DNA from: Flexilinea sp.
GTDB lineage: Bacteria > Chloroflexota > Anaerolineae > Anaerolineales > Anaerolineaceae
Reading direction: 5' to 3'
Assembly (NCBI GenBank): GCA_017432685.1
Contig: JAFRIR010000024.1
Span: 1-37,231, forward strand
Length of the DNA stretch: 37,231 nucleotides
In this document: one piece after another, positions 3,478-26,907 of the stretch
How the letters are laid out: each line of letters starts with the position of its first letter
Position numbering within the stretch: the stretch's first letter is position 1
Translations under genes and position numbers: made by a program
The notes under the pieces: generated by a model
The model's database searches: none
The model's input: only the letters and a program-made list of their open reading frames with translations
What the model was told of the DNA's origin: nothing

Positions 3478-4530
3478 ATGGCAGAGAAAACAAGCGCTTC
3501 AAAACGCCAGACCTTCTGGAATAAGGTTTTCAATCCGAATTTCATCATGGTTTATGCGGCTATTCTGATCTTCCTGATCATCTACGCATTCGGTGCGATC
3601 ATGTATGGGAAAGTCGGGTTCACAACGCTCCGTACCTTCATCAATATGTTCATTGACAATTCCTATTACGGGATCTCAGCGGTGGGTATGACCATGGTGT
3701 TGATCACCGGGGGCATTGACCTGTCTGTTGCGGCTGTTGCCAGCCTAACCGGTATGATCATCGCTTACGGTACCGGCGTGATGGGAATTCATCCGGCGAT
3801 CTGCATTCTCTTCTCCTTTGTCGTCGGGGTCGGCCTCGGGTTGCTGATGGGCGCAACGATCCAATACCTGAATGTTCCTCCTTTCATCACGACCCTTACC
3901 GGGATGTTCCTTGCCCGGGGTGTCTGCTCTCTGATCAGCCGTGAGTCCCTGACGATTTCACATCCCTGGATCGATCAGCTGGCCGGTTGGAAGATTTATT
4001 TCAAACACTATGTTGATGGAGAATGGGTCAAGGTGAAACCGATCGCATTCATCAATCTGAACTTCATTCTGTTCATCGCGATGATCCTGATCGGGTTCTT
4101 TATTCTGCAGCGGACACGTTTCGGCCGCAACATTTACGCAATTGGCGGCAATGAACAATCCGCGAAACTGATGGGGCTTCCGGTAGCCCGGACAAAGGTG
4201 CTGGTCTATGGCTTCAACGGTTTCTGCTCCGTTCTTGCAGGTGTAGCATATGCGCTTTATGTCAAATCAGGATGGAACCTTTCCCTTCAGGGTGGTGAAT
4301 TGGAAGCGATTTCCAGCGCAGTTATCGGTGGTACGCTGCTGACCGGCGGTGTAGGCAACATGTTGGGAACACTGGTCGGTGTGTTGCTGAAATCTGTCAT
4401 CCCGACATTGATCACTTTCAACGGCAACTTGCTTTCCTGGTGGGGGAAGATCGCGACCGGTGTGCTGCTGCTGATCTTCATCAGCATCCAGACCTTCATC
4501 ACGAATTACTCGACCCGGAAAAAGATTTGA
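3478..4530 (+). CDS. yjfF: Sugar ABC transporter permease, YjfF-like
   Basis: A 350-residue second permease of the first sugar importer, RbsC/YjfF family. It has an N-terminal transmembrane segment, the conserved ITGGIDLSVAAVASLTGM and the ATPase-contacting loop GGELEAISSAVIGGTLLTGG near residues 275-295. Its ATG is one base after the stop codon of the preceding permease and uses an AAGGAGG inside that gene, so the two are translationally coupled. It would pair with the YtfT-like subunit in the membrane. A hairpin about 16 bases downstream probably ends the transport operon before araA. Confidence 0.9.
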   Translation: MAEKTSASKRQTFWNKVFNPNFIMVYAAILIFLIIYAFGAIMYGKVGFTTLRTFINMFIDNSYYGISAVGMTMVLITGGIDLSVAAVASLTGMIIAYGTGVMGIHPAICILFSFVVGVGLGLLMGATIQYLNVPPFITTLTGMFLARGVCSLISRESLTISHPWIDQLAGWKIYFKHYVDGEWVKVKPIAFINLNFILFIAMILIGFFILQRTRFGRNIYAIGGNEQSAKLMGLPVARTKVLVYGFNGFCSVLAGVAYALYVKSGWNLSLQGGELEAISSAVIGGTLLTGGVGNMLGTLVGVLLKSVIPTLITFNGNLLSWWGKIATGVLLLIFISIQTFITNYSTRKKI

Positions 4531-21936: not shown

Positions 21937-21970
21937 CTGTTTCCTATGAAAGCGGGTTTAGAACAGATAA

Positions 21971-22100
21971 GGGCATCTCTAAAAACTAACGGGCGGGGGT
22001 ATGGGGGCGGCAGCCCCCGGAAACCTCCCGAGGAGATTCAGAGAATTTATTCTCTGAATCTCCTCGGGACAGAGAAAATTTTGACTTTTTAGAGGTTCCC
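21971..22100 (+). mobile_element. MITE-like element, copy 1
   Basis: A 130-bp element with terminal inverted repeats of about 15 bp (GGGCATCTCTAAAAA left, TTTTTAGAGGTTCCC right, two mismatches), flanked on both sides by ATAA (21967-21970 and 22101-22104). Inside are a G/C hairpin (GGGGGC/GCCCCC at 22003-22018) and a perfect 20-bp stem with a TTTA loop (22026-22045 with 22050-22069). There is no coding capacity. It lies 34 bases after the cyclase gene and 44 before the solenoid-protein gene. Confidence 0.8.
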
Positions 22101-22144
22101 ATAAGAATTATCTGTGTTTTTAGAATAAAGATACAAAGGAACAG

Positions 22145-24088
22145 ATGACCACGACCATAAAAATTATATTGTGGCTGCTTTGTGCAATGATCGTGTTTGT
22201 TCCGTTCGGAACACTGGTAGCGATGAATATCATTTATCCGGAGGGACCGGAATATCATTTGCTTTTCCGTGTGATGACGATTATATATTTTATTGCTGTT
22301 TTCCTTCTGATCCCGTTTATTTCCTTCCGGATCGGTGAAGCCGAAGATATTGCTGAAGCCTTTACCTGTTGTTTTTTTCTTTCTTTCTTTTCTCTTCTGA
22401 TCCTGTTATGGGGTGTGGGCTGGAAAAACATATGGGGTATTTTCTCCCTGGCTGCTCACACCGGATGGAGCAGGTTTTGGTTCTATCTGGTCTTTGGCTT
22501 CTCCTGGTTATGCTCTTCGGCAGCTTGTCTTTCGTTTATTATTTTCCCGTATTCATTTGATGATGCGGCGGAAGAGATCGCCTGTAATATTACGGAGCAC
22601 ATGGTTTTTACCGGATTGCTGCCGGGGATTGCTGAACATGATGTCAGCGGGAAAGTCCGTCGTGCGGCTGTAGACCGAATTGATAAAGAAAGCGATTTTC
22701 ATCATATTCTTCTGTGGGGGGAATATGATGACAGCCGTGTCGAGGCTGTTTCGAAAATAAAAGATCAGGAAGTTTTGAGCCATTTTGCCGAAAATGATGA
22801 ATCTGTGAAGGTAAGAAAGAAAGCTGTTTTACGGGTCAGCGATGAATTTGTATTGTGTCGAATCGCTGAAGGAGATAAGAATAGCGATGTTCGTGCAAAA
22901 GCTGCCGAAAGAATCAGTGATCAGTCTGTCCTTGAGCGCATTGCGAAAACGGATAATGCTAAAGAAGTACGTCAGACAGCGGTCAGAAAAATTGAAAATC
23001 AAAAAGCATTGGCGGCAATCGCTCAAACCGAAACAGAACCATCTGTGCGCATAGAGGCTGTGCGGAAACTCCAGCTAACAGAGGCGCTTACCGAAATCGC
23101 ATTGCAGGATGAATCTGCAGCTGTACGCAAACTGGCGATACAAAAAATAGATGATCCCGAAATTTTGGCAAAGGTCATCATGCAGGACCCGGATGACAGA
23201 ATTCGTGATATCACATTAGACAGAATCGATGATCAGGAGGTGGTGGACTGGCTGGCCGAAAATGATCCATCGCCGGTCATACGCGAAAAAGCTATCGATC
23301 AGGTGCAGGATAAAAAGATTTTGTCACGTATTGTAATTCATGATGATTTTCCCGGTATTCGAAAGAGCATTGTTATCAGGGGGCTTTCACAGACGCTGCT
23401 GAAGAATATCGCTGTAACAGATTCCAGCCCGGAAGTCCGTCTTGAAGCAGTTAAACAAATCAAAGATAAAAAGCTGTTAGCTCATATTTCAATTGAGGAT
23501 AATGATCAGAAAGTAAGGAATGAAGCAGCGCTAAAGGCTGGGACAGAAGAAATGGAAAGTGTTATCCTGCATTCAAAAAGCAGCTCTCTTCATGTCCCTG
23601 TGTCATGGGCAAAACAAGTGTCGAATGAAGCAGTTCTCAAAATCCTGGCAGAACGGGATACTTCAACTGATATTCGCATAGATTCCATTAGAAGAATTGA
23701 TGATCTGTCTTTTCTAAATCAAACTGCTCTTTCCAATAGCTGTGCGCCGGCACGAATTGAAGCTATTGAGAAAATTGATGATGCCGCTGTGCTGCGGCGC
23801 ATTATTCTCCAGGATCAGAACCTGAACATGGTGCGGGCTGCTGCAGACCGTATCGGGGATCCGGATGCGAAAGTGATCGGTTATGAAAAATTGCTGAAGG
23901 CTGATCCTTATGAAAGCAGAATTGCGGGAAAACTGCGGGATCTTTATCTGGAAACAAAAATATCTCACAGGCTGAGGGAAGAACATTCAGATATCCATGA
24001 AGAAGATGAAAACAGCGGTTCCTATTATTGCTGCTATGAAGATTATGCTGATCACGATGACACAGCTTATTACGTCGAATCCTACTGA
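22145..24088 (+). CDS. Membrane-anchored alpha-solenoid repeat protein (HEAT/LRV-like)
   Basis: A 647-residue protein of unknown function. Residues 1-140 contain four hydrophobic segments. From about 170 to 590 there are roughly sixteen repeats with a period near 26 residues, consensus VRxxAxxxIxDxxxLxxIAxxD, for example SDVRAKAAERISDQSVLERI. The pattern is like HEAT or LRV (leucine-rich variant) solenoids, and the short period is nearer LRV. Such solenoids are protein-binding scaffolds. The C-terminus is acidic and ends in a tail with seven Tyr and two adjacent Cys in the last 24 residues (starting SGSYYCCYEDYADHDD). AAAGGA precedes the ATG. The radical SAM gene begins 12 bases after its stop, which implies joint function. 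Confidence 0.8.
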   Translation: MTTTIKIILWLLCAMIVFVPFGTLVAMNIIYPEGPEYHLLFRVMTIIYFIAVFLLIPFISFRIGEAEDIAEAFTCCFFLSFFSLLILLWGVGWKNIWGIFSLAAHTGWSRFWFYLVFGFSWLCSSAACLSFIIFPYSFDDAAEEIACNITEHMVFTGLLPGIAEHDVSGKVRRAAVDRIDKESDFHHILLWGEYDDSRVEAVSKIKDQEVLSHFAENDESVKVRKKAVLRVSDEFVLCRIAEGDKNSDVRAKAAERISDQSVLERIAKTDNAKEVRQTAVRKIENQKALAAIAQTETEPSVRIEAVRKLQLTEALTEIALQDESAAVRKLAIQKIDDPEILAKVIMQDPDDRIRDITLDRIDDQEVVDWLAENDPSPVIREKAIDQVQDKKILSRIVIHDDFPGIRKSIVIRGLSQTLLKNIAVTDSSPEVRLEAVKQIKDKKLLAHISIEDNDQKVRNEAALKAGTEEMESVILHSKSSSLHVPVSWAKQVSNEAVLKILAERDTSTDIRIDSIRRIDDLSFLNQTALSNSCAPARIEAIEKIDDAAVLRRIILQDQNLNMVRAAADRIGDPDAKVIGYEKLLKADPYESRIAGKLRDLYLETKISHRLREEHSDIHEEDENSGSYYCCYEDYADHDDTAYYVESY

Positions 24089-24100
24089 TATTTTGCTGTG

Positions 24101-26275
24101 ATGGCTGTTCCCCGTTTTACCCCCAAAGTATTTCTGTTGGTTCCCACCATGGCCTGTCAAGCAGGCTGCAGTTACTGCTATGCTAAAAAGACGGGTGAGC
24201 AGATGAACAGCGATACCGCGGAAGCTGCTGTTGATTTTATGGACAAAACCAGCCGTGGAAAACGCATCAAAATCATTTTCCATGGCGGAGAACCGCTTTT
24301 GGCCGGGAAGGAATTTTACAAATTTATCCTGCCGAAATTAAGAGACCGTTTCGGACGTCGGGCTGCTCTTGCGATCCAGTCAAATTTGTGGTCGATGGAT
24401 GAAGAAATGGCATCTCTTCTTCATGCTTATGAGGTGGAAGTCAGCACAAGCATAGACGGTTATCGGGAGATGTGTGACGGACAACGTGGAGAAGGTTATT
24501 ACGATAAAGCACAGAGAGGTGCGGCCATCGTGGCCGCAGAAGGACGGCATGTCGGAAGGATCTGTACTTTTACGGCAGATCATTATCGGGATGCAGAGCG
24601 TGTATTTCGTGAAGCTGAGGCTCCTTATACAATTCATGGCGCTGTTCCAACCTATGGTGAGCTTGACAGTCCGCAGACGATTACTCCGGAGCAATTTACA
24701 AAAGTCCTGCGGGATACGTATCATGCTTATAAGCGTGATCTTTCACATACAAGGGTCAGCCTGCTGGACAGTATGGCATCGGCATTGCTGAATAAGCATG
24801 CAGGCTTATGCACCTTTTCTCCCTGTTTGGGACAATACGCGGCGATAACTCCAAACGGAGACCTTTATTCCTGCCAGCGGTTTTCCGGAATCAAACAGTT
24901 TTCACTTGGGAATGTAATGGACAGCCTTGATGAAGCAGCTGTTCTTGCCAGTGAAGCGTGGCAGCTGCTCTGGTTAAAGACTGAAGAGATGAAAGAAGCT
25001 TGCGGAGATTGTCTTCATTTCTCTTATTGTAACGGTGGATGTCTTTATTCCGCCTTTACCGCTAACGATCCGAAGGATCCTTATTGTGAAACCTATAAGA
25101 CCTTGTTTGACGAAATGCTTGCGGACCTGGGATGGGAGATCGCTTCTGTGATGCAGAATACGGAATGCGAGACTCCCGTATTGTGCATGGCCGGTGAGAA
25201 GCCGCACCCTTATGACGAACGGGTAAAAACAGATCGAATCAGGCGGGCTTTGGATTTAGGCAAGTTCCCCGGGGAAAAATGTGGCAAAGTGAAATATCCT
25301 GAAAACCAGCTCAATAAGGTCTTTTTCAATATTACAAGGCACTGTCCGCTGAAATGTTCTCACTGTTGGGTTGGTGAAAGAGAGAATTTTGAGAAGGAAC
25401 TTCCTGTTGAACGGTTGGTGCAGTTGATTCGGGAAGCAGTGAACATGCAGTTTCGCCGTATTATCATCACCGGCGGAGAACCTCTGATGTACCGGCATTT
25501 TGATGAGTTGATGGATTCGCTGACAGGTTTAGATAGAAAGGGTTCGGAGCTGATACTGCGATCATCTTTTGCCTTTTCCATAAATGAAACAAGAATGCGC
25601 AAAATTGCAGCTGTTTTTGATCGTGTGATCATCAGCATAGATGGGACCAAAATGGCACATGATGCAAGACGGGGCAAAGGATCTTATGAAAAGACGGTGA
25701 GAAATCTTGAGCTTTTTTCAGAAGTAGGTGATTCGCGGAAACTCGGCATATGGTCGGTGCTGTCCCGAGATCAGCTTGAAGGAACTGATGCAGAGGCGGT
25801 TCGGGCACTTGCGGAAAAGTTCCATGTCGGTTTTGTGCATTTTGATCCGTTGAAGCCAATGGGCTATGCGTGTTTCGGCGAATGTGACCAAACCGCTGAT
25901 TTACCGGCGAAAGCGGAGGAACTTCGTGTGCGGACAAATTGCGGCCTTGGGCATATCCTCCATGTTGAGCCGGATGGAAAAGCTTATGCATGTTATGCCT
26001 GCACCTCTCCTGAGGCGCTGTTAGCCGATCTTTCCCGGGATCCTCTTTCGTGTGTAAAGGAAAAACTGTTTGCGTATATGGATCGGGGTGTTGATACCAA
26101 TGAAAAATGTTCCGCTTGTTCTGTTCGTTACCTCTGCGGAGGACTTTGCCTGGTCTACAGACCGAATCCAAACCGACCTGACAGCGGAGAATTTAACTGT
26201 GATGCACGGAAAAAACGACTGAAACAGATGGTCAGACCGCTTTTTGTTGATCAATCAGAAAGTGTGAATTCATGA
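24101..26275 (+). CDS. Tandem radical SAM-SPASM protein, putative peptide/protein-modifying enzyme
   Basis: A 724-residue protein with two complete radical SAM modules, each with its own SPASM-type auxiliary cluster region. Module 1: CX3CX2C at C19, C23, C26, GGEP at 62-65, SPASM cysteines C237, C242, C258, C301, C304, C310, C314 and C329. Module 2: C415, C419, C422, GGEP near 458-461, then C614, C631, C634, C670, C673, C679, C683 and C700. Radical SAM-SPASM enzymes mostly form cross-links or oxidise residues in ribosomal peptides, or mature sulfatases; no sulfatase or short precursor peptide was recognised here. The start is ATG 24101 (GTG 24098 is possible); no Shine-Dalgarno is visible, suggesting coupling to the solenoid gene. 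The stop overlaps the next start (ATGA). Confidence 0.88.
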   Translation: MAVPRFTPKVFLLVPTMACQAGCSYCYAKKTGEQMNSDTAEAAVDFMDKTSRGKRIKIIFHGGEPLLAGKEFYKFILPKLRDRFGRRAALAIQSNLWSMDEEMASLLHAYEVEVSTSIDGYREMCDGQRGEGYYDKAQRGAAIVAAEGRHVGRICTFTADHYRDAERVFREAEAPYTIHGAVPTYGELDSPQTITPEQFTKVLRDTYHAYKRDLSHTRVSLLDSMASALLNKHAGLCTFSPCLGQYAAITPNGDLYSCQRFSGIKQFSLGNVMDSLDEAAVLASEAWQLLWLKTEEMKEACGDCLHFSYCNGGCLYSAFTANDPKDPYCETYKTLFDEMLADLGWEIASVMQNTECETPVLCMAGEKPHPYDERVKTDRIRRALDLGKFPGEKCGKVKYPENQLNKVFFNITRHCPLKCSHCWVGERENFEKELPVERLVQLIREAVNMQFRRIIITGGEPLMYRHFDELMDSLTGLDRKGSELILRSSFAFSINETRMRKIAAVFDRVIISIDGTKMAHDARRGKGSYEKTVRNLELFSEVGDSRKLGIWSVLSRDQLEGTDAEAVRALAEKFHVGFVHFDPLKPMGYACFGECDQTADLPAKAEELRVRTNCGLGHILHVEPDGKAYACYACTSPEALLADLSRDPLSCVKEKLFAYMDRGVDTNEKCSACSVRYLCGGLCLVYRPNPNRPDSGEFNCDARKKRLKQMVRPLFVDQSESVNS

Positions 26276-26706
26276 TTCTTGTGAGTGAATGTTTGTGCGG
26301 TGTCCCCTGCAGGATGGATGGAAAAAGCAAGCTTGTGCCGGAAATTCTGAAACTTGTGGAGGAGGGCAGGGCTGTTTCAGTTTGTCCGGAAGTTCTCGGA
26401 GGGCTGCCAACCCCGCGGAAACCGAGCGAACGGCTTGAGAATGGACGGGTGGTGAATTGTGATGGAGAGGATAACACCGAGGCCTTTGTTAAAGGTGCAC
26501 AGGAATCTCTGAACATATGCCGCAGCCATGACTGTACACTGGCAATTCTGAAGTCGAAAAGTCCCTCCTGTGGAAAAGGAATCATCCATAATGGGAAATT
26601 TGACGGCGGTCTGGTTGAAGGGAATGGTATTTTGACCGAGCTTTTACTCTCTGAAGGAATACCTGTAATGACAGAACAGGAATATCTGAAGTCAATATCG
26701 ATTTAA
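26272..26706 (+). CDS. DUF523 family protein (TudS/YbbK-like Fe-S desulfidase candidate)
   Basis: A 144-residue protein of the DUF523 family. It begins ILVSECLCGVPCRMDG, followed by VCPEVLGGLPTPR and the C-terminal LKSKSPSCGKG, the three Cys-containing blocks typical of the family. A DUF523 member, TudS, is known to use a [4Fe-4S] cluster held by three Cys to remove sulfur from thiouracil. Whether this protein acts on thiouracil, on tRNA-derived thionucleobases or has another role is unknown. It overlaps the radical SAM stop by four bases (ATGA), so it is translationally coupled. Its TAA is the end of the TTAA that flanks the downstream MITE-like element. Confidence 0.88.
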   Translation: MILVSECLCGVPCRMDGKSKLVPEILKLVEEGRAVSVCPEVLGGLPTPRKPSERLENGRVVNCDGEDNTEAFVKGAQESLNICRSHDCTLAILKSKSPSCGKGIIHNGKFDGGLVEGNGILTELLLSEGIPVMTEQEYLKSISI

Positions 26707-26868
26707 GGGAACCTCGAATAACTCACCAGCGGGGGTATGGGGGCTGCATAGCCCCCGGAAGCCATGGCGCGGGAAGGTTATTTTCCGAGAAAAAATAATT
26801 CTGAATCCCGCGCCATAATGATCGAACTGCGAATGAGGTCAGAATTTTAGGACCTTTTAGAGGTTCCA
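26707..26868 (+). mobile_element. MITE-like element, copy 2
   Basis: An element of about 162 bp related to copy 1 and in the same orientation. The termini GGAACCTC (26708-26715) and GAGGTTCC (26860-26867) are perfectly inverted, and TTAA flanks both ends (26703-26706 and 26869-26872). The block GCGGGGGTATGGGGGC and the AGCCCCCGGAA that closes the hairpin are shared with copy 1. The second hairpin has an 11-bp outer stem (26764-26774 with 26806-26816) whose sequence differs from that of copy 1. It starts directly after the DUF523 stop codon. Confidence 0.8.
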
Positions 26869-26871
26869 TTA

Positions 26872-26907
26872 AAAAAGGATGGCGTCTTTTTTAGCGCCAT
26901 CCTTTTT
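26872..26907. terminator. Bidirectional rho-independent terminator
   Basis: AAAAAGGATGGCG (26872-26884) pairs with CGCCATCCTTTTT (26895-26907) around a 10-nt loop. T-runs are present in both directions, so it serves both the DUF523 operon (+) and the opp operon (-). Confidence 0.9.

Follow-up and report, generated by a model that had tools for sequence, protein, structure and literature searches.

What is made by an operon that places a helical repeat protein directly upstream of an enzyme with two radical SAM cores? The question is raised by positions 22,145 to 26,706 of contig JAFRIR010000024.1 from Flexilinea sp. (Anaerolineaceae; assembly GCA_017432685.1), which was analysed as one stretch of 37,231 nucleotides, hereafter the window. 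Three open reading frames (ORFs), P0001, P0002, and P0003, are located there on the plus strand and encode proteins of 647, 725, and 144 amino acids, as described in an initial annotation made from the DNA letters. That annotation regarded the three genes as an undescribed system for protein or peptide modification. The first two do recur as a pair in other genomes (linked in 9 of 14), which supports this part of the proposal; the third gene, encoding a DUF523 protein, does not share in this recurrence. We consider it likely that the pair is a two-component protein-modification system, in which the HEAT-repeat protein P0001 would be the substrate and the twin enzyme P0002 would modify or cross-link its tail. 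This C-terminal tail, with the order H-x-D, Cys, H-x-D, is the most telling feature of the system and was absent from the initial annotation.

P0002 is the twin radical SAM-SPASM enzyme that had been predicted. Each half contains a CX3CX2C radical SAM core (C20/C24/C27 in the N-half, C416/C420/C423 in the C-half) and SPASM cysteines; the SPASM cysteines of the N-half are C238, C243, C259, C302, C305, C311, C315, and C330. The core and these eight cysteines of the N-half were invariant in an alignment of eight sequences and form the cysteine pattern of TIGR04083-type enzymes (rSAM_pep_methan). With the TIGR04083 model, the N-half scored 294.5 bits, just under the curated cut-off of 300 (262.7 in the genome search), while four relatives scanned as proteins exceeded the cut-off (319.5, 359.9, 395.5, and 399 bits). 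In the corresponding genome search of the family, 4 of the 7 matching genomes reached the cut-off; the score of genome G059 was 319.5 as a protein and 295.8 in the genome search. The model also has a match in one of 14 control genomes, that of Methanosarcina acetivorans. The best family for the C-half was the sactipeptide maturase StsB, with 100.2 bits against a cut-off of 625; the C-half from genome G319 scored 109.7 bits against the same cut-off, with one residue wrong in the query. Judging from its cysteines, the twin enzyme would hold up to six Fe-S clusters. A domain resembling PqqD or the recognition element (RRE) of ribosomally synthesized and post-translationally modified peptides (RiPPs) was suspected by eye in the linker that joins the halves in the relatives; Pfam scans of three twin proteins gave no such match at E ≤ 1.

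Searches for the enzyme covered the phylum of the window. With the window included, it was present in 7 of 147 genomes of the family (E ≤ 1e-60; the same seven were found by the TIGR04083 search), in 3 of 400 genomes drawn from the order (E ≤ 1e-70), and in 5 of 396 and 5 of 400 genomes drawn from the class and the phylum, respectively (both E ≤ 1e-100, with two candidates scored per genome). These overlapping draws contain 14 distinct enzyme-bearing genomes, namely that of the window (G000) and 13 relatives, including G046 from the same genus and G003 to G006 from a single other genus, g3. Both enzyme halves occur in 10 of the 14, the gene of G577 reading as two ORFs. Only the N-half was found in G003, G1013, and G1019, where a search for a C-half returned nothing further at E ≤ 1e-25. 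In G554, a short contig carries the C-half; of two weaker radical SAM matches found elsewhere, one covers the N-half, and both are read as other enzymes. A plasmid search returned one weak N-half relative, from Cetobacterium (26% identity, 46% coverage), and a scan of genome contigs returned one distant match.

The initial annotation had named independent scattering of the homologues as the observation that would speak against a system. Such scattering was not seen: a tailed HEAT gene adjoins the enzyme gene or lies within about 1 kb of it in 9 of the 14 genomes (G000, G046, G059, G319 with three HEAT genes, G577 with two, G652, G934 with two, G1013, and G1019), and both genes are present in 13. 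The spacing is 10 bases or less, or the genes overlap, in several of the nine. The related question of whether the solenoid gene is always adjacent receives a divided answer, as it lies elsewhere in four genomes, all of genus g3, and none was found in one. In G003 to G006 (loci L074 to L077), the tailed HEAT gene is followed closely on its 3' side by an ABC exporter gene, at about 50 bases or less in G004 to G006 (Pfam checked in G006 only). This neighbour is a hint that the modified product is exported in genus g3.

The tails found outside the genus of the window roughly follow the order H-x-D, C, H-x-D, with a few residues after each of these elements, and often close with a terminal G-[VL]-[DE]-F-x-L. 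The strict motif H.D..C..H.D was present within the last 50 residues of 15 of 18 tails and in none of 224 other ORFs of the same DNA; as it was composed after the tails had been inspected, the former count is only descriptive. The background ORFs were non-overlapping, at least 120 amino acids long, and drawn from the window and the retrieved loci; not all of them are real genes. The 18 tails include one from G767, a genome without a detected enzyme, and exclude G046_b, in which the tail frame is shifted relative to the membrane part and continues into the enzyme gene (this sequence was cut after AYYGG for the alignments of tails from the genus of the window). Identity over the last 38 residues is 76–89% among three genomes of genus g3, versus 57–64% in the HEAT part. 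For the HEAT proteins scanned with NCBIfam and Pfam, all matches were either of the repeat type or sub-threshold, and none named the tail. Such a tail is missing from two HEAT-like proteins encoded elsewhere in the window's genome, not close to the enzyme, and from a HEAT ORF of 245 amino acids from G652 (L038, 5326-4589).

Co-occurrence of tail and enzyme was examined with a tail profile, A3, built from eight tails of five genomes (G577, G934, G059, G319, and G652). When every candidate in the 14 enzyme-bearing genomes was scored, 11 genomes gave near-full-length matches (E ≤ 2e-11), with none strong in the window, G046, or G554. The next-best matches (E ≥ 0.0046) covered mostly profile positions 1 to 24, which correspond to ordinary HEAT sequence. 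Each of the six held-out enzyme-bearing genomes (G003, G004, G005, G006, G1013, and G1019) was matched, all at E ≤ 2e-11. In the class draw, A3 found 4 of 396 genomes (G006, G577, G652, and G767), so that G767 is the single match among 391 genomes without a detected enzyme; the best enzyme-type match there was 90 bits. The tailed gene of G767, a genome with 72% completeness, begins right at a contig edge; by analogy with the arrangement in G934, this edge falls where the enzyme gene would lie. For six of six held-out genomes versus one of 391, Fisher's test gave 1.3e-12, and for one genome per genus (three of three versus one of 391) 4e-7, which corrects for relatedness only in part.

The end of P0001 reads HSD...CCYEDYADHDDTAYYVESY. 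Three tails are available from this genus, one from the window and two from G046. A, RDLY, and K are invariant in their last helix, and H614, D616, C630, Y631, H637, D639, Y642, and Y643 (P0001 numbering) in the tail itself, that is, the motif and tyrosines. Among 14 genomes of the genus, strong matches to a profile of these tails (E about 1e-36 or better) were confined to the two enzyme-bearing ones, from which the profile had also been built, so that only its negatives are informative: the next match in the 14 genomes had E = 0.13, and the best one in the 12 genomes without a detected enzyme E = 0.19. It is probable that the tail of the window is the same thing as the tails of other genomes, because it takes the same position beside the same enzyme, its motif residues are invariant, and the profile had no strong match in the 12 genomes of the genus in which the enzyme was not detected.

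The body of P0001 is recognised by the Pfam HEAT model PF02985 with 28.7 bits over the whole protein (cut-off 23.5; each stretch falls short when taken by itself), and scored 22.6 bits with PF13646, below the cut-off of 27.7. A single-sequence AlphaFold model with a mean predicted local distance difference test score (pLDDT) of 64 displays N-terminal helices, a regular array of helical repeats, a last helix at residues 591–609, and an unstructured tail; pLDDT is below 50 for residues 605–647. Thus, of the membrane-anchored repeat scaffold proposed initially, the repeats hold, if weakly. The membrane part was read by eye from the hydrophobicity of the N-terminal helices and was seen only in the window and G046; the remaining HEAT proteins look soluble, also by eye. 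Five longer relative HEAT proteins are well over the Pfam HEAT cut-offs, and a G046 protein of 153 amino acids has no HEAT match above cut-off. In G046 (L015, 8431-7431), a membrane protein without HEAT repeats apparently runs into a tail in another frame, through a frameshift or an assembly error, which suggests a form composed of membrane anchor plus tail.

From these features we infer the role of the tail as substrate, the division of labour, the type of bond, and the function as follows. The HEAT solenoid and its last helix would be the carrier and recognition element that presents the disordered tail. The twin enzyme would recognise the carrier, and the tail would enter its two active sites. 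Most likely, the TIGR04083-type N-half would act on the H-x-D segments, and the C-half, which resembles sactipeptide maturases, would form a thioether from the tail cysteine. This split is hinted at by the tail cysteine, which is kept in all 10 twin genomes and missing in two of the three N-half-only genomes, G003 and G1013 (p = 0.04, the genomes not being independent). The product would be a HEAT protein with a cross-linked tail, either retained on the carrier or released. As in RiPP systems generally, a conserved core is found in a variable precursor encoded with the enzyme, the homology of the window's tail to the others being unproven. A fuller version, in which the solenoid carries a cross-linked His/Asp/Cys tail as a metal or redox centre or as a releasable peptide and the two-headed enzyme performs two different reactions on it, is proposed tentatively and seems to us somewhat doubtful; a metal or redox use of these residues is a guess.

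A number of observations weigh against the tail as the substrate. The whole interpretation is drawn from sequence, and the strict motif has the post hoc origin mentioned above. Three tails lack this motif, G319_c with one strict H-x-D, and G1013 and G003 with no cysteine; the G1013 tail also has a ragged end. The distance from the cysteine to the aspartate of the next H-x-D varies between 2 and 11 residues. Between the two paralogues of G577, and likewise between those of G934, the tail is not more conserved than the HEAT part. The enzyme of G1019 consists of the N-half only, yet the tail cysteine is kept. In G003, genome completeness is 84%, and the HEAT gene is present as a fragment where a contig begins. 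The A3 profile search detected no tailed HEAT gene in G554, possibly a case of joint decay of the system. The held-out comparison is uneven, with at most 14 tail candidates and two enzyme candidates scored per genome in the class draw; that draw includes just one of the six held-out genomes, and four of the six belong to one genus. The case is weakest for the tail of the window: the profile of its genus is circular in its positive matches, A3 does not detect the P0001 tail, and shuffles of the tail composition produce the motif at 3%. When the tails of this genus were compared with A3 profile to profile, the last helix alone was aligned (probability 3%, E = 0.014), which leaves homology unproven. 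Finally, no peptidase was noticed by eye.

The best-surviving alternative assigns the HEAT protein the role of a scaffold or partner, such as a delivery chaperone or a subunit of a complex. The real substrate would then be another protein, and the tail would dock on the enzyme or bind metal unmodified. HEAT solenoids are common scaffolds, H-x-D and Cys residues are also good metal ligands, and adjacency by itself does not separate a partner from a substrate. We nevertheless regard this explanation as unlikely. G319 encodes three paralogous HEAT proteins of different lengths and with similar tails beside one enzyme, and multiple substrates of one enzyme fit this arrangement better. The absence of the tail cysteine from two of the three N-half-only genomes and the naming of TIGR04083-type enzymes as peptide-modifying also argue for a substrate.

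Another alternative is a system of all three genes, namely the solenoid, the twin enzyme, and the DUF523 protein, the last supplying or handling sulfur. P0003 was correctly identified in the initial annotation (PF04463, 140 bits versus a cut-off of 34.7); it is a relative of TudS (structure 6z92 matched at 4.1e-31), and its gene overlaps P0002 by four bases. However, 13 relative loci (13 genomes including G046, 5–15 kb each; the rest of those genomes was not searched) contained no DUF523 gene beside the enzyme, the best match having E = 0.57. This largely refutes the three genes as a conserved unit, and DUF523 was rejected as a conserved component. We give the three-gene system very little credence; since DUF523 stands beside the enzyme in the window only, it is probably a bystander outside the system. 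Equally improbable are chance neighbours and a tail motif arising as a compositional accident: other HEAT-like genes do occur in the window's genome and the window tail taken alone is marginal, as the shuffles indicate, but the full-length A3 matches are well apart from the next ones, all six held-out genomes were matched, and the motif is missing from the background ORFs.

Returning to the pair of HEAT protein and modifying enzyme, the layout of the locus in the window is given in Table 1. The gaps between the genes had been given as +12 and −4 bases. The second is confirmed as an ATGA overlap; the first is 12 bases only from the ATG start of P0002 and 9 bases from the GTG start. Two related elements described as miniature inverted-repeat transposable elements (MITEs) do exist on both sides of the genes, and their mutual relationship was borne out. 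The upstream repeat, about 140 bases long, is an inverted repeat with a perfect 21-base hairpin in the middle. Used as a query, it yielded at least 40 near-full-length copies in the genome, its own included, among the best 40 of 200 first-look candidates that were scored. As this repeat family is dispersed genome-wide, the repeats around the operon are uninformative, and they were rejected as a sign of its mobility.

Table 1. Positions of genes, protein segments, and repeats in the window, and of AAA_28-type genes in relative loci
Feature	Positions	Strand	Description
P0001	22145..24088	+	647 amino acids; hydrophobic N-terminal helices, HEAT-like solenoid, C-terminal tail; putative substrate (precursor)
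P0001 last helix, residues 591-609 (SRIAGKLRDLYLETKISHR)	23915..23971	+	Precedes the tail; putative recognition element; from predicted structure and alignment
P0001 disordered C-terminal tail, residues 610-647	23972..24085	+	H614-x-D616, C629 C630, H637-x-D639, Y642 Y643; putative modified core
P0002 twin radical SAM/SPASM enzyme	24098..26275	+	725 amino acids; start GTG 24098 or ATG 24101
P0002 N-half, residues about 1-340	24098..25117	+	TIGR04083-like radical SAM and SPASM
P0002 C-half, residues about 405-725	25310..26272	+	Second radical SAM and SPASM
P0003 DUF523/TudS thiouracil desulfurase-like	26272..26706	+	144 amino acids; judged to be outside the system
Dispersed inverted-repeat element, upstream of P0001	about 21965..22105	.	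At least 40 genomic copies, own copy counted
Related repeat element, downstream of P0003	about 26704..26875	.	Resembles the upstream element; only the upstream one served as genome query
AAA_28-type genes	L039 8060-8650; L041 10169-10768 and 12357-; L040 (G554) 3573-4205; L085 downstream of base 602		

Several other genes were recorded around the system in the relatives. A gene for a small AAA_28-type nucleoside triphosphatase (NTPase) is located 3' of the tailed HEAT gene in G577, G934, and G767, and 3' of the C-half in G554 (by eye in G554 and G767). In genus g3, the enzyme gene is beside a gene for an N_BRCA1_IG lipoprotein-like protein (L016, L018, and L025 of G005, G003, and G004, and L026 of G006), and in G003 to G005 also beside a gene of the AAT family (acyl-CoA:6-aminopenicillanic acid acyltransferase); one of each was checked with Pfam and the others by eye. 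A very large gene beside the system in G319 (L024, 8921-14002) resembles, by eye, DUF4062/WD40-type signalling NTPases, and a link to conflict systems is possible.

The locus was also screened for defence systems with PADLOC, which gave no match for P0001 or P0003. P0002 matched pVip (best 80.7 bits) over its second radical SAM core, which is interpreted as a shared fold. Those of a relative HEAT protein to HEAT-ARM_XIII (61.4 bits) and of a neighbouring NTPase to PtuA (weak, 20.7 bits) are likewise read as shared folds, and a defence system was rejected.

In the literature covered, which excludes most subscription papers, we found no description of a pair of HEAT protein and twin radical SAM enzyme and no function for TIGR04083. 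Most known radical SAM/SPASM maturases act on short precursor peptides. The likely substrates considered here are mostly large repeat proteins with only a short tail in common, and their enzyme is twin-fused in 10 of 14 genomes. If the tail is indeed modified, the pair would represent an undescribed kind of bacterial protein modification, and a substrate is proposed for a TIGR04083-type enzyme.

Among known families, TIGR04083 is matched by the P0002 N-half over nearly the whole model, but here another radical SAM/SPASM half is fused to the N-half in 10 of the 14 genomes. The SPASM maturases StsB and PapB and the SCIFF maturase form thioethers from cysteine. Sactipeptide and ranthipeptide maturases resemble P0002 in that StsB is the top-scoring family for the C-half, with PapB ranking among the leading ones for the N-half; all scores are far below the cut-offs, however, and in place of a short peptide, the tail of a large repeat protein would serve as substrate here. 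The quinohemoprotein amine dehydrogenase maturase QhpD and the anaerobic sulfatase maturase are radical SAM/SPASM enzymes that act on proteins. Both models match the P0002 N-half, but with scores far under the cut-offs (173.7 bits versus 349.45 for the anaerobic sulfatase maturase, TIGR03942), and the position after a SPASM cysteine that we take to hold the catalytic Asp of the latter enzyme is Gln in the aligned P0002.

The His-Xaa-Ser system (HxsA, HxsB, HxsC) is similar in that it, too, combines a pair of radical SAM units with a target in which His-x-residue motifs are repeated. The two radical SAM maturases that accompany HxsA are HxsB and HxsC (see also PMC9062424). In contrast, one fused enzyme is encoded here instead of two genes, the tails carry H-x-D and not H-x-S, and the HxsB model scored 113.7 bits with P0002 versus a cut-off of 370. 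As described in PMC7159879, the FxSxx-COOH/FxsB system shares with our pair a SPASM enzyme and a conserved C-terminal motif on a variable precursor; it differs in the motif, in lacking the HEAT precursor found here, and in its metallopeptidase, which was not noticed here by eye. A radical SAM/SPASM enzyme with a target that contains a conserved core is a known kind of system.

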